From: an uncultured Victivallales bacterium
Lineage (GTDB): Bacteria; Verrucomicrobiota; Lentisphaeria; Oligosphaerales; JAFGRS01
Assembly: GCA_903834675.1 (NCBI GenBank)
Contig: CAILKC010000765.1
Coordinates: 1 to 14,278, forward strand
DNA: 14,278 nucleotides
Reading direction: 5' to 3'
Position 1 is the first letter of the stretch, and every line of letters begins with the position of its first letter. Below the pieces are notes generated by a model that saw only the letters and a list, made by a program, of their open reading frames with translations, searched no databases and had not been told where the DNA came from. The position numbers and the translations under genes are program-made. Of the stretch, positions 6,339 to 12,982 are shown piece by piece.

Positions 6339-8234
6339 CTACCGACTCAGCCACACTGCCTCGTAAAGCCCCGTATGGACCACGGGCAGCTCCCGCGCCT
6401 GCCAGCCGGCCTGGCGGAAGCGCTCGAGCACGCACGGCTTGGACTGGCGCACACTCTCGTCCATGGGCAGATACAGAATGCGGCGATAGGCTCCCAGGTC
6501 CCCCGCGGCCAGCAGAGCCGTGAGACGCTCTGCCGGCGCCACCAGCACCCGTTCCCCTGGCGGCATGCGGTCGGTGATCTGCAACACCATCCCGCGCCAC
6601 AGGTTATCGAGGTACACTAGGTCGGGCTTCTCGCGGGCGATGTACTGCACGTTGGTCTGCGGTTTGATCCGCTGGCAGTGCCAGCCGTAGAGGACCAGCA
6701 TGCCAAGCATGCCGACCAAACCAACGACAGTCAACGCCCGGAGCCAGCGCTGCGGGTGCAGATGCAGAAACAACACCCAGGCCAGCACGGTCAGCAGCCA
6801 GAAAGCGCAGAGGTGATTCGGGCCAGTGGCCCAGCCGTGGTAGAACCCGAGAGCAACCAGCAGAAACTGCAGCAGTCCAGCCCCGAGCATGCCGGAGAGC
6901 ACCACGGCCGCCGCAGCGCCTACGTTGCCGCCGCTGGCGGCGCAGGGTTCAGGGTTCGGGGTTCGGACTACGGAGGCCCCATCCGTGCAGATCCGTGTGG
7001 TTTGTGGGTACGTCGCGCCTCCTCTCCGCCCCATCGCCCAGGCGACGTAGCCGCCAAGCGCTAGGATGACGGCGAGCAGCGCGGCACCCGCCACCCAGCA
7101 GATCCACGCCGGCAGGAACGACGGCCAGGGGATCACCATCTGCGGGATGCCCCCGAACGCCTCGCCGACCTGCAGTCGCCGCGCGATCCCCTGCGATACC
7201 GCCCGGGCATGCTGGATGGCGCCAGGGTTCAGCACCAGGAACAGCACCGCGGCACCCACATAAGCCGCGCCGAGACTCAACGTCCGGCGCCACTCCCGGC
7301 GCCAGGCCAGTACCCCGAGCAGGGCCAGGTGGATGGGTACGCTCATGGTCGCGAAGGTGTACTGCGTGCTCATGCCGCCGACGCACGCGAGCCCAAGCAG
7401 CGCCGAGAACACCGCAGACCGACGCCTGGAAAGCCGCTCCCGTGCCAACTCGCTCGCCAGAAGCATGGTCAGGGCGTAGAACACGGCAAAGAGCGCGTAC
7501 TGCCGCACCCACGTCGCGGTGAAGATGGCGCTGTTGCCAAGGAGGAAGAGGCAGAACGCGAGGGCTGAGGGATGAAAGCTGAAAACTGATGGCAGGCCGG
7601 AGGTGCTGCCAGGCCCTGAGCCTGTCGCAGGGCCATTGCCCGACCCTGCCCCCCCCTCGACCTGGCCCCTGCCGCGCCGAACCGTGCTCAGCGCCTGCGG
7701 CTGCGCACTGCCAACTAAGCGGTGGACGGTGAAGGCCAGGATGCCGGCGGCAAGCACGATCTGCAGCCAGGTCAGCCACACCGCCTGCTGGTACCCGCCG
7801 TGGGGGAACAGGCTCAGCCAGCGGTTGAAGACCCAGAAGGCCAACGGCGGGTGTTTGTCCCCTGCCTGCACATCCCGGCAGATCTCCGACCAGGACACCC
7901 GCACAAAGCCCTTGGTGAAGCGCTGCCACTCCTGCGCGGGCACCACGTGGTTGAGCGGGGCCTCGCCCGTGGCCAGCAGGTGTCCATACTCGCGCTCCAG
8001 CCCCTTCGAGGCCAGCAGGGCGATGACCTCGTCGTGGTGCGGACCGGCGTAGCCCGTGTCCCGCTGCCAAGCCAGGAAGCCGAAGAGAACGGCGGCAGTG
8101 AGTAGGCTGCCGAACAGTGCCTGGCGAGCATGGCCCGACAGCACCGGCCGTCGCGGACCGTACGGCACAGCGCTCACGGCCTCCGGCCCGTGCTTCTGAG
8201 CATGGATATGTGATGGAGTCTCGTTCTCAGTCAT
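6339..8234 (-). CDS. GT-C fold (GT39-like) integral membrane glycosyltransferase
   Basis: A 631-aa multispanning protein resembling PMT/ArnT-like transferases, which use a polyprenyl-phosphate sugar on the outer face of the membrane. After a cytoplasmic N-terminus, helix 1 is at 40-56, followed by a loop with the catalytic-type acidic pair D68-E69 (GPHHDEV) and DKHPPLAFWVFNRWL (126-140), the H-P-P-L motif of the family. Further hydrophobic helices lie at about 151-170, 224-262, 275-310, 320-336, 371-400, 440-466 and 476-520, followed by a soluble tail of about 110 residues. Two low-complexity stretches interrupt loops: 183-222 (Gly/Ser rich) and 405-435. They are encoded by repeat-like DNA, described separately. 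I chose the ATG at 8234, 29 bp after the upstream stop; no strong ribosome binding site is seen. An in-frame TTG extension to 8423 would lie entirely inside the neighbouring gene and lacks family features. The donor sugar and acceptor are unknown. Confidence 0.85.
   Translation of the reverse strand: MTENETPSHIHAQKHGPEAVSAVPYGPRRPVLSGHARQALFGSLLTAAVLFGFLAWQRDTGYAGPHHDEVIALLASKGLEREYGHLLATGEAPLNHVVPAQEWQRFTKGFVRVSWSEICRDVQAGDKHPPLAFWVFNRWLSLFPHGGYQQAVWLTWLQIVLAAGILAFTVHRLVGSAQPQALSTVRRGRGQVEGGAGSGNGPATGSGPGSTSGLPSVFSFHPSALAFCLFLLGNSAIFTATWVRQYALFAVFYALTMLLASELARERLSRRRSAVFSALLGLACVGGMSTQYTFATMSVPIHLALLGVLAWRREWRRTLSLGAAYVGAAVLFLVLNPGAIQHARAVSQGIARRLQVGEAFGGIPQMVIPWPSFLPAWICWVAGAALLAVILALGGYVAWAMGRRGGATYPQTTRICTDGASVVRTPNPEPCAASGGNVGAAAAVVLSGMLGAGLLQFLLVALGFYHGWATGPNHLCAFWLLTVLAWVLFLHLHPQRWLRALTVVGLVGMLGMLVLYGWHCQRIKPQTNVQYIAREKPDLVYLDNLWRGMVLQITDRMPPGERVLVAPAERLTALLAAGDLGAYRRILYLPMDESVRQSKPCVLERFRQAGWQARELPVVHTGLYEAVWLSR
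6930..7022 (-). repeat. in-frame repeat-derived insert 2 in the GT-C gene
   Basis: Encodes residues of about 405-435 between two membrane helices. It contains a 7-bp tandem (AGGGTTC, three units, the last with one change, 6944-6964) and a 10-bp direct repeat beginning ATCCGTG (6981-7000). Both are of a type usually seen between genes. The reading frame stays open and the encoded peptide (TPNPEPCAASGG region) has no family character. Confidence 0.6.
6944..6964. repeat. 7-bp tandem repeat, 3 units
   Basis: Units AGGGTTC, AGGGTTC and GGGGTTC follow without a break. Because 3 x 7 = 21, the array is a whole number of codons and keeps the GT-C frame. Confidence 0.75.
7612..7634. repeat. hairpin repeat inside the GT-C gene
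   Basis: GGCCCTG and CAGGGCC form a 7-bp perfect stem with a 9-nt loop. It lies inside the coding sequence, in the Gly/Ser-rich insert, where a terminator would make no sense. A mobile palindromic repeat is the likeliest reading. Confidence 0.55.
7649..7656 (-). repeat. G8 homopolymer in the GT-C reading frame
   Basis: Eight consecutive C on the plus strand, read as G8 on the coding strand across the Glu-Gly-Gly codons near residue 193. A change of one base would shift the frame and end the protein before most of its membrane helices. Tracts of this length are known phase-variation sites in surface-glycan genes of other bacteria; whether this one varies is unknown. Confidence 0.6.
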
Positions 8235-8263
8235 GGAAGGAGAACAGCCCAGATCCGCTGCTC

Positions 8264-9511
8264 TCAACTCGGCGACCACGGTCGCGAGGAGTCCCCGAAG
8301 CTGCGGCCGACGAGTTCGCGGATGCGGGCATCGGCAGGGATGGCGCGCCGGGCAGCCGTCAACTCCCAGGTCTGAGCCCCGTTGCCGTCGCGGCCGCGCT
8401 TGCCGGGCTGGGGGGCATGCCAAAGATGGAGGACGGGCAGGTAGCCGTACGGGTGGACCGCCAGCGTCAGACAGCGATCCCAGAACTCGTTGTCTTCGCC
8501 GCCCCAGCCCACGAACTGCTCGTCGAACCCGCCGATGGCAAGATAGGCATCGCGGCGAATTGCCAGGGAGCCGCCACCCTCAAGGTTCTGGATCACCTGC
8601 TCGCAGCGGCAGTCGTCAGGAACCAGGCCGCCGCGACAGGTGGCCTCAGACGACGACTCGTCCAGGTAGAACACGAAACGCTTGGGCTGGATGACGTCAC
8701 ATCCGGAGGCCACCAGATCCACCACGGAGCGCGCGTAGCCGACCGGCACCAGCATGTCGTTGTCGTGACCGATCAGGACCTCGCCACGGGCCGCGCGGGC
8801 CGCCACGTTGAAGGCCCACGAACGGCAGTAGGGCATGCCCGGGTCCGGCGGTGGGGTATGGAGGTAGCGCACCCAGCCCGGCAACCGGTCGCGAACGCGG
8901 GGTTCGGAATCCTGCTCGATCACGATGCACTCGAAGGTCGTACCCTCCTGGGCGGCGATGGACCGCAGCGTCAACAGCAACAGCGGCAGCCGCTCCTCGC
9001 CGCGATGCCCGATGAGGAAGGAGACCTGAGGGGAAGCGGAAGTCGGTGGTCGGAGGGCGGTGGGCGAGAGGTCGGAATGTGGAAGGCGCGTCCGCCGCGG
9101 CGGATCGTGGCGATCCCCGCTCCTGCCCTGTCCGTCGTCTCGTGCTCCCGTGGTCCCGTCGTCCTGTGGTCTCGTGATCCCGTCGGGTGCTCGGCTGGCA
9201 TTCCAGCACACCTTGTCTGCCGTGACCGGGTCTGGTGCGTCCAGGAGCCGGAGCGGCCAGTCCCGCAGGGCCCGCTGCAGCAACCAGCAACCCGTGATCG
9301 GGAAGACGTTGCAGAGATGCAGGTTGTGGGTGTACTCCCAGTCGCACTTCACCCCCACGCCGCCCGGCTGGATGATCAGGCCTTCGTGGCGATTGCGCAG
9401 GCGCAGCCAGGGCGCCTCCCCTCGGCACAAAAGACGCGGCCGCAGACACCAGAGAAAGCGCGGCCAGTCGTAGAGCAGCGTCCCCAGTTGCTGTCGCCTG
9501 GTGAAGCTCAT
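8264..9511 (-). CDS. GT2-family glycosyltransferase with galactosyltransferase-like C-terminal motif
   Basis: A 415-aa predicted nucleotide-sugar glycosyltransferase (GT-A fold). The catalytic domain begins near 161 with VSFLIGHRGEERLPLLLLTL (163-182). It has an acidic residue in IEQDSEP (D201), the metal-binding GHDND (248-252), and GGSLAIRRDAYLAIGGFDE (313-331) followed by GWGGEDNEFWDR (335-346), which matches the C-terminal galactosyltransferase signature (Glyco_transf_7C: G-G-F-D-E...G-W-G-x-E-D). Residues 1-105 form an extra domain (GLIIQPGGVGVKCDWEY, 44-60) that I cannot name. Between the two lies a 55-residue Asp/Gly/Arg/Pro-rich insert made of repeat-like DNA. The ATG at 9511 overlaps the upstream stop as ATGA, so this start is well supported; the frame is open to 9769, but that part lies inside the neighbouring gene. 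The GT-C gene follows 29 bp later. The sugar is not determinable. Confidence 0.86.
   Translation of the reverse strand: MSFTRRQQLGTLLYDWPRFLWCLRPRLLCRGEAPWLRLRNRHEGLIIQPGGVGVKCDWEYTHNLHLCNVFPITGCWLLQRALRDWPLRLLDAPDPVTADKVCWNASRAPDGITRPQDDGTTGARDDGQGRSGDRHDPPRRTRLPHSDLSPTALRPPTSASPQVSFLIGHRGEERLPLLLLTLRSIAAQEGTTFECIVIEQDSEPRVRDRLPGWVRYLHTPPPDPGMPYCRSWAFNVAARAARGEVLIGHDNDMLVPVGYARSVVDLVASGCDVIQPKRFVFYLDESSSEATCRGGLVPDDCRCEQVIQNLEGGGSLAIRRDAYLAIGGFDEQFVGWGGEDNEFWDRCLTLAVHPYGYLPVLHLWHAPQPGKRGRDGNGAQTWELTAARRAIPADARIRELVGRSFGDSSRPWSPS
9091..9104. repeat. palindrome TCCGCCGCGGCGGA inside a glycosyltransferase gene
   Basis: A perfect 14-bp palindrome, identical to the central 14 bp of the 32-bp palindrome at 63-94 (72-85). 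A one-mismatch relative of its 13-bp core lies at 11796-11808. It is abutted by the GGATCG/CGATCC inverted repeat. Confidence 0.65.
9138..9185. repeat. degenerate 8-bp tandem repeat, 6 units
   Basis: Six contiguous units with consensus TCCCGTGG on the plus strand: TCTCGTGC, TCCCGTGG, TCCCGTCG, TCCTGTGG, TCTCGTGA, TCCCGTCG. Three units make 24 nt, so on the coding strand the protein repeats every 8 residues (GITRPQDD then GTTGARDD). The array lies in the linker of the GT2/GT7C-like protein. Confidence 0.75.
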
Positions 9512-11892: not shown

Positions 11893-12636
11893 TCACTCCC
11901 GGCGCAGGTAGCCGCCGGGGCAGAACGTGAGGCAAAGCTTCTCGCGTGACCCGTCGACCTGAAAGCCAGTGCCGCCAGACGCAAGAAACTCCTGCACGGC
12001 CTCCATGGGCCCGGGACCAAAGTCTTCCGCCACGGGGTGCCCGCCGATATTCGTGTCCTCAACGATGAGGTAGTGCCCTCGGCTCACCAAGGTGTGGTAG
12101 AGTCGGAGCTCGGCCAGCACGTGACTCTTCGAGTGGTCCGAGTCCAAGACAACCATGACCTTGTCTGCCGGGCCTAGGTGCTGCTTGACGGTTGCGAACG
12201 TCGCGTCGGCAACGGACGATCCCCGCACGTAGGAGATCCGTGGGTGCTCCGGCCGCCCGACCTCGTCGGCGATATCCACGCTGACGACTCGGCCGTTGCC
12301 CAGCACCTCACATAGGTCTGCCATGAACAGGGCGGAACCGCCGAACCGCGTGCCCGTCTCGACGATCACGTCCGGCCTGAGTGCGTGAATGATCTCCTGG
12401 AATACCCACAGATCGAGCGGGCACTTCTCGGCCACTACCCCGCGCCAGTAGGTCGCGGCCCAGGTGCCGCCCTGACCATAGCCGTCGTAGTACATGCGGT
12501 GGAACTGGTCGGTGATCGCCTGACGGACGGCGGGATCGTGCCGCCACGGCCGACGCCGCAGTTCCTCGCGCCGATGGTGGTACGCCCCCCGGACGGCGCG
12601 GATCTTCAGTCGAAGAGCAGTCAATGGACCGAACAT
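11893..12636 (-). CDS. CmcI-type O-methyltransferase (cephalosporin hydroxylase family)
   Basis: A 247-aa member of the CmcI family, whose relatives include rhamnosyl O-methyltransferases of glycolipid pathways. Despite the family name these are SAM- and metal-dependent methyltransferases. SAM-binding motif I is VIVETGTRFGGSALFMA (90-106), with the acidic ribose contact in VVSVDI (117-122). Metal-binding acids are expected in VVLDSDHS (162-169) and LIVEDTNIGGHPV (190-202). The N-terminal YYDGYGQGGTWAATYWRG (49-66) is the conserved substrate-side phrase. The ATG at 12636 is preceded by GAGG seven bases upstream. The frame remains open to a GTG at 12954, but that part is made of the 43-bp repeats and is Arg-rich, so I exclude it. 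Following a GT10 gene, it may methylate a sugar hydroxyl of the glycan; that is inference. Confidence 0.88.
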   Translation of the reverse strand: MFGPLTALRLKIRAVRGAYHHRREELRRRPWRHDPAVRQAITDQFHRMYYDGYGQGGTWAATYWRGVVAEKCPLDLWVFQEIIHALRPDVIVETGTRFGGSALFMADLCEVLGNGRVVSVDIADEVGRPEHPRISYVRGSSVADATFATVKQHLGPADKVMVVLDSDHSKSHVLAELRLYHTLVSRGHYLIVEDTNIGGHPVAEDFGPGPMEAVQEFLASGGTGFQVDGSREKLCLTFCPGGYLRRE

Positions 12637-12698
12637 GTTGCAGCCTCGCACGGCATGTGGTGACGGTGCTATCTGGGGCGACACGGGGGCCTGCCCTG

Positions 12699-12741
12699 GC
12701 GGCCGACGGCGCCAGGCGTGGAGCAGCGGTCGGCTCGACCG
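12699..12741. repeat. 43-bp direct repeat, copy 1
   Basis: Identical over 43 bp to 12891-12933 (offset 192). It starts GCGGCCGACGGCGCC and ends CGGTCGGCTCGACCG. The end contains the inverted repeat CGGTCG/CGACCG around a 3-nt loop. Confidence 0.9.
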
Positions 12742-12890
12742 TCCCCGACCCGTCCCGACCGCGTCCCTCAGAGTGGCGGGGCGGCGACGGGGAGACGGCG
12801 GAAGTCCTGCCGTTTCGGCATGACGGCCCGCCGACCTCCACGCCCTGCGGGCGGACCGGAGGGGCCGGGGCGAGGGCTCCCTTCCGCCTA

Positions 12891-12933
12891 GCGGCCGACG
12901 GCGCCAGGCGTGGAGCAGCGGTCGGCTCGACCG
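12891..12933. repeat. 43-bp direct repeat, copy 2
   Basis: Exact match to 12699-12741. In this copy the flank extends the end hairpin to an imperfect GGAGCAGCGGTCG/CGACCGCTCC stem. Confidence 0.9.
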
Positions 12934-12982
12934 CTCCCTGCACACAACGCACACGCCCCCCTCAACCGAACTCCCGCTCCCG

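Follow-up and report, generated by a model that had tools for sequence, protein, structure and literature searches.

Short-word repeat arrays lying in frame as putative disordered linkers in a bacterial glycosyltransferase and, in another lineage, in conserved enzymes

The window analysed here, which is the whole stretch of 14,278 nt, holds a run of genes of the surface-glycan type, with Pfam matches in eight of the ten proteins scanned and families that include glycosyltransferases, polysaccharide deacetylase and sulfatase. A gene on the minus strand (8264-9511) encodes a glycosyltransferase of 415 aa, identified by the Pfam families Glyco_transf_7C and Glycos_transf_2 and by its homologues. 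Within this protein, 55 residues (106-160; 9032-9196, minus strand) are encoded by arrays of 7- and 8-nt units, confirming the observation of an earlier note on this DNA that repeat-like sequence lies there in frame.

The glycosyltransferase was aligned with 110 other proteins shorter than 450 aa, taken from 120 listed of 1,599 homologues after leaving out the window's own protein and nine fusion proteins. As the earlier note had expected for residues 106-161, the insert had no counterpart in 109 of the 110. The number of residues facing query positions 106-160 was 40 in P0002, 16 in the next protein (P0063) and 3 in the median, and P0002 alone has an insert, shorter and different, for which 41 residues were counted between the flanking anchors. 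The contrary case named beforehand, in which several species would have an alignable linker as long as this one, was not found among these homologues. The protein cluster to which the glycosyltransferase belongs comprises two member sequences on 18 contigs (P0001), which argues against an assembly error. In the AlphaFold2 model, the mean pLDDT was 45-48 for residues 111-150 and 62 for residues 151-160, compared to 96-97 in the tens of residues that flank 101-160 on both sides, the 55-residue insert being modelled as disordered. Insert GC content is 67-71%, near that of the window (67%), and five of the six frames of the glycosyltransferase insert are open. When the insert DNA was searched against plasmids, 88 records with short matches were obtained, the best E among 20 listed being 0.5, and no match covered 80% of the query.

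On the coding strand, the insert reads as an 8-nt array, a palindrome and a degenerate 7-nt array, in this order. The 8-nt array, of the GACCACGG type (9131-9185, minus strand), was reported by Tandem Repeats Finder with period 8 at 9132-9183 (degenerate units, 72% match) and, at 9132-9185, also with period 24 and a score of 73, and the 7-nt array, of the TCCGACC type (9037-9083, minus strand), with periods 7/14 at 9044-9075. Self-match by lag was then compared over the whole window with 30 dinucleotide shuffles. For lag 8, the top peak started at 9131 and reached 32 of 45, with a shuffle maximum of 26. For lag 7, where the shuffle maximum was 27, the top three peaks started at 6930 (29), 9037 (28) and 7539 (26), so that the last is not significant alone. 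No other lag between 4 and 15 exceeded its own shuffle maximum in the window, and lag 16 did so as a harmonic of 8. Only one of the two arrays of the glycosyltransferase insert stands far above the shuffles. Across the window, the top signals for periods 7 and 8 fall within or overlap three inserts, the other two of which are in a neighbouring gene described below.

The palindrome between both arrays, TCCGCCGCGGCGGA (14 nt, 9091-9104), has an exact copy at 72-85, in the core of a 32-bp palindrome in non-coding DNA (63-94), as the earlier note had claimed. The match between the copies ends at the 14-mer without extension, only this core being common to the insert and the 32-bp palindrome. No other 14-nt palindromes exist in the window, and the same 14-nt palindrome appeared twice in none of 100 simulated sequences. 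Directly repeated 14-mers number 34 in the window against a simulated mean of 1.5, many of them plausibly derived from one 52-nt duplication. Two 52-nt direct repeats (12695-12746 and 12887-12938; 94% identity, 192 bp apart) lie upstream of the likely start of a minus-strand reading frame at 11893-12954. The 63-94 palindrome is adjoined by an inverted repeat at 10-61 with 26-nt arms, 85% complementary and without spacer, which is located downstream of the polysaccharide deacetylase gene and looks terminator-like.

Two more inserts are present in a membrane protein encoded by the adjacent gene (6339-8243, minus strand), for which 33 homologues besides itself were compared and no Pfam family was detected at E 0.001 when a longer reading of the frame was scanned. 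Insert 1 (48 aa; 7560-7703, minus strand) contains TTTTCAGCTTTCATCCCTCAGCCCTCG, has pLDDT values of 47-60 in its lowest blocks and is overlapped by the lag-7 peak at 7539, within the shuffle range. Insert 2 (32 aa; 6921-7016, minus strand) contains CACGGATCTGCACGGATG and CGAACCCCGAACCCTGAACCC and carries the lag-7 peak at 6930. In the predicted model, both regions are of low confidence and unstructured between helices, with slight overlap at their ends; two of six frames are open in insert 1 and four of six in insert 2. Heptamer arrays of TTCAGCC, which resembles a word in insert 1, were seen in a Desulfococcaceae MAG (G002, at L230:5999-6039 and L240:4312-4354).

At site 2, 30 of the 33 other proteins lack an insert of this kind, counting among them P0124, which is some ten residues longer there. 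The remaining three (P0122, P0123 and P0148) are the nearest relatives of the window's protein, with core identities of 73-75% against 44-53% for the rest, and have longer inserts that differ from that of the window. The insert of P0123 contains SVDGA and THGRTG as repeats, and that of P0148 contains TEHTE, FSFHPSALPPSA and TEHRTLNTDH, so that, judged from the proteins, the three inserts read like word arrays. FSFHPSAL is found in the window's protein as well, at the other site (insert 1). As P0122 and P0148 have an insert part in common (RMDTKGSL.TEHTE.TE), their comparison suggests that inserts at site 2 may grow by accretion, a reading made at the protein level. At site 1, among the 21 relatives listed (P0122 and P0124-P0143), only P0122 has an insert. 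Two named homologues of the membrane protein belong to Planctomycetaceae (P0128, around 51% identity over the core) and Burkholderiales (P0154, around 47%); a search of viral contigs for relatives returned none, and the third protein search yielded no close relative with a name.

Rickettsia palindromic elements are a family of palindromes with a common sequence that lie between genes and also in frame within genes. The earlier note had likened the glycosyltransferase insert to such a mobile element, and the presence of repeat DNA in frame within a gene, together with the identity of the window's two 14-nt palindromes, agrees with this. Despite this, folding of the whole insert was no better than that of shuffled sequences (z = 0.37, equalled by 126 of 200 shuffles), and consequently the insert was rejected as a whole-length fold-back element; of the hairpin that the earlier note had described, a local one is possible, whereas the folding of the entire insert did not hold. 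In addition, the palindrome is a small middle part of only 14 nt, and the three inserts consist of degenerate arrays with changing words and differ from each other, without any common sequence marking one element. Insertion of a Rickettsia-like element thus appears improbable.

The evidence at the DNA level comes from a model lineage other than that of the source genome, the Thermoanaerobaculia MAG G001 and its relatives, all of them drafts whose completeness was not stated. The G001 locus L025 encodes a glycosyltransferase 40% identical to that of the window. In a sample of 149 genomes of the phylum of G001, the first word pattern matched nine genomes, with 35 matches in G001. Tandem arrays were counted in 400-kb samples of G001, G160 and G168 and in 284 kb of G002, all of them arbitrary stretches in which array density may be somewhat overestimated because many of the sampled contigs came from earlier hits, some of which were array hits. 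In G001, 16 arrays had period 7, six period 8, six period 14 and three period 16, with a single case at period 6, two each at periods 18 and 20 and none at periods 2-5 or 9-13, whereas no tandem arrays at all appeared in a single set simulated with a third-order Markov model. G160 had 26 arrays at period 7, six at period 12, isolated ones at other periods and none at period 8, and G168 had six at period 7 and a few at several multiples of three; period 7 was found twice in G002 and once in 469 kb of cyanobacterial loci. According to these counts, period 7 recurs, whereas period 8 is prominent only in G001 and in the window, and not in G160, G168 or G002.

In the 800 kb of G001 and G160, 59 array arms were identified, 45 of which had an inverted partner within 250 bp, compared to 1 of 80 random segments. 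Eleven arms were in genes and 48 outside, although around 86% of the G001 sample is coding according to our own simple gene finder, trained on G001 and used also for the location of the arms. Thus, the arrays tend to fold back and to avoid genes. Words free of stop codons were found in 9 of the 11 arms inside genes and in 26 of the 48 outside, a trend only (p = 0.17). The claim of the earlier note that such DNA occurs both in and between genes is supported here by the model lineage rather than by the source genome. Separate arrays were noticed in other places: G007 has one long CCGACCG/CCGACCA array (L045, contig C62 from 65175; 17 overlapping pattern matches) and no other match, and at L064:3316-3395 of G001 a 12-nt in-frame repeat encodes repeated GDKT, an ordinary multiple-of-three array that serves as a contrast case.

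The window's inserts could also be ordinary fast-evolving disordered linkers in GC-rich DNA, made repetitive by local slippage and unrelated to dispersed arrays. The predicted disorder of the linkers, the GC content close to that of the window and the degeneracy of the arrays fit this proposal, but periods of 7 and 8 are not the multiples of three to be expected from local slippage within a coding sequence, three inserts are found in two adjacent genes, and many separate sites of the model lineage have one and the same word. We consider such an origin unlikely, albeit less so than insertion of a palindromic element.

Arrays inside conserved genes were analysed at 20 G001 sites that had been picked out with a single word pattern and were read wherever a frame was open, for which reason their in-frame state is partly due to the way they were chosen. 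In-frame arrays were found within or between the domains of a NadD-type nucleotidyltransferase, MutS, a phosphoglucomutase-type protein, an E1 dehydrogenase, an aconitase-type protein, a sugar nucleotidyltransferase, an aldehyde ferredoxin oxidoreductase, a large F5/8-domain protein with two arrays and a membrane protein, the remaining sites being near N-termini or intergenic; where a name goes further than the Pfam and PDB matches (NadD, guanylyltransferase, hydrolase), it is our own reading. Translated arms are G-rich, like GVGGRGS or RESGVG, or C-rich, like PTPDPRP. In the best alignment of MutS to a solved structure, the array is an insertion in an otherwise complete protein. Among the 12 loci resolved of 15 for the MutS site, arrays were present in G001, G161 and G160, and the other nine relatives had a native, array-free linker.

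Nine further sites were checked through their flanks in six relatives. Arrays were detected at eight of the nine in G160 and at five of the six found in G161, the exception being in both cases the guanylyltransferase ("GMP"). No array was present at any further site found in G165, G168, G154 and G162, although the aldehyde oxidoreductase site was located in none of these four genomes and the first site of the F5/8 protein in G154 only. The native loops of these genomes measure 2-15 residues, except for NadD (28-33 residues); as the NadD site has 36 residues in G160 and G161, the array there replaced the loop rather than lengthening it much. G168, array-free at the tested sites, has inverted heptamer arrays of its own with the word GAACGCA/GAATGAA (for instance L203:14740-14854), with 10 arms of this type in 400 kb.

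Fifteen inserts in the sister genomes G160 and G161 were located by the flanking protein sequence alone. All 15 were stop-free multiples of three, and 14 of them differed from G001 in length. As the unit is 7 nt long, single unit changes break the frame. Selection thus seems to act on the reading frame at array sites, implying that they are translated, and the inserts of the model lineage are compatible with translation. The same data weigh on two other explanations. The arrays could work as phase-variation switches, in which gain or loss of 7- or 8-nt units would shift the frame and turn a surface-glycan gene on or off; the type of the genes and unit lengths that are not multiples of three speak for this, but degenerate units, with a 72% match in the 8-nt array, should slow slippage, and arrays of the model lineage are found in MutS, NadD-type and aconitase-type genes, with all 15 inserts in frame. 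We regard such switching as very improbable. The inserts could also remain untranslated, through ribosome bypassing or removal from the RNA, as their hairpin-like form within conserved enzymes of the model lineage might indicate. In contrast to translational bypass elements, whose length is free of the frame, the 15 sister-genome inserts all keep the frame without stops, which bypassing would not need, and this explanation is scarcely credible.

The words themselves changed between sister genomes. G001 and G161 use GGGRGTC, with GACACCC variants also in G161, whereas G160 has in addition GGGGRGT, the same heptamer with C changed to G. In G160 the new word occupies the sites in MutS, aconitase, the oxidoreductase and the F5/8 protein (both sites), with a few old units kept at some of them, and GGGRGTC is found at the NadD, phosphoglucomutase, E1 and membrane-protein sites. 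Counted as overlapping matches to three consecutive units and not as separate arrays, GGGRGTC was matched 375 times in G001, 244 in G160, 136 in G161, 74 in G164, 3 in G034 and 0 in 13 others, with a reversed control of 0 in the first five; GGGGRGT was matched 274 times in G160 (reversed control 17), once in G165 (control 2) and 0 times in 16 others. In another 20 sites of G160, selected for the new word, no mixture of old and new units was seen in 36 of the 41 arms, and where arms existed on both strands a new-word arm faced a new-word arm at 14 of 17 sites; no outer-to-inner gradient of new words was detected along G160 arms. At the oxidoreductase site, flanks 91-100% identical enclose inserts that can barely be aligned. 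Word replacement may have proceeded by conversion of old arrays or by fresh insertion at favoured sites.

RAYT/Y1 transposases (PF01797) were considered as movers of the arrays. The five genomes with GGGRGTC arrays have 7-15 copies of Y1 transposases and the other 13 have 0-8, but the 126 kb surrounding Y1 genes in G001, G160 and G161 contained only one array, compared to 27 arms in 400 kb of G001. Despite the copy numbers, a role for these enzymes is unsupported, as the arrays are not near their genes. REP elements, associated with RAYT transposases, are described in the accessible part of PMC3733652 as short inverted repeats, mainly intergenic and in some cases within genes; the arrays differ from them in that their arms are arrays of words and are not associated with Y1 transposases.

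The window and the model lineage are linked by kind and not by descent. Both have periods not divisible by three, in-frame inserts in loops that are predicted to be disordered and differing words at one site, and CCGACYN heptamers occur in both the window and G001. For octamers of GACCRCGR, a pattern built from both sources, overlapping matches numbered 91 in G001, compared to 1 for the reversed control; counts were lower in seven further genomes of this group, G034 being not far above its control (9 vs. 5). Against the link, the window insert does not fold back and its arrays are looser than those of the model lineage.

Similar short units are known from distant bacteria. Cyanobacteria have STRR heptamers, which are short tandemly repeated repetitive units. 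The TAACTGA repeats of Beggiatoaceae are 7-nt tandem units with forward stop codons, described as intergenic in the accessible text of PMC4679880. The arrays resemble both in their 7-nt tandem units, dispersed in the genome and common to distant lineages, but differ from TAACTGA repeats in being read as protein. In Xanthomonas and Nostoc, G-rich heptameric repeats (GGGNATC and GGGGA(C/T)T) are dispersed and mainly intergenic, with many inverted pairs in Xanthomonas and few in Nostoc, and are under-represented in coding regions, 7-11% being intragenic in Xanthomonas, according to the accessible part of PMC4692102. The window shares 7-nt units with them, above the shuffles at two of its three peaks, whereas its insert also has an 8-nt array, is looser and does not fold back, and its degenerate words do not match theirs. 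GGGRGTC of G001 and GGGGRGT of G160 are near, not equal, to these words; inverted pairs as in Xanthomonas are present in G001 and G160 (45/59 arms) and absent from the window insert, and 48/59 arms of G001 and G160 lay outside the genes called by the simple gene finder. The accessible part of PMC4692102 describes neither in-frame linkers in conserved enzymes nor a change of word at such places, and the open-access literature searched yielded no description of fold-back heptamer arrays that lie in frame within conserved enzymes. Coding palindromes are known from Nematomorpha mitochondria, as inverted repeats within protein genes in which both arms encode conserved sequence (PMC6649704, accessible part), whereas the arms described here encode an added linker.

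The above results suggest, with a probability of roughly 0.7, that the glycosyltransferase insert is short-word array DNA that came into the gene without disturbing its frame and now forms a disordered linker with continuing word turnover. For the window, this reading draws on the absence of the insert in homologues, the periodicity, the predicted disorder and the different inserts that relatives of the membrane protein have at one site; the model lineage shows the same behaviour in its DNA. The interpretation of the earlier note is thereby supported in part. With its 7- and 8-nt tandem units on the two sides of a small palindrome, the insert would belong to a type dispersed mainly between genes in some genomes. 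An array entering a gene in frame would give, on translation, a disordered linker between domains and be tolerated at this boundary, after which the occupied site would keep turning over, with words gained, lost and replaced, while selection would hold the reading frame and the stop-free state. This turnover may involve slippage during replication inside an arm and template switching from one inverted arm to the other; an excess of heptamers has been attributed to polymerase slippage at about 7 nt, a proposal cited in the accessible parts of PMC4679880 and PMC4692102. Some copying process would carry words between sites, although none of the machinery found supports such a spread, and the source genome of the window would presumably be rich in such arrays.

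A broader proposal, which we put forward tentatively and hold to be possible rather than probable, is that some bacteria of distant phyla share 7/8-nt word arrays in which a new variant replaces older words throughout an array, in its two inverted arms and at numerous sites of the genome, among them sites already occupied in conserved genes, while orthologues keep rewritten, species-specific linkers. If so, this would be a genome-wide concerted evolution of a dispersed repeat and a lasting source of new protein linkers, brought about by some copying machinery.

What seems to be new is that arrays of the heptamer type live as in-frame, word-swapping protein linkers. This offers a concrete and testable path from non-coding repeats to bacterial protein sequence, with a built-in test of selection in that the units have 7 nt and yet the inserts come in multiples of three, in related genomes with and without the array. 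As a caution, the sequence of a linker of this kind does not have to reflect function. The origin and spread of heptamer arrays becomes addressable in a few related genomes.
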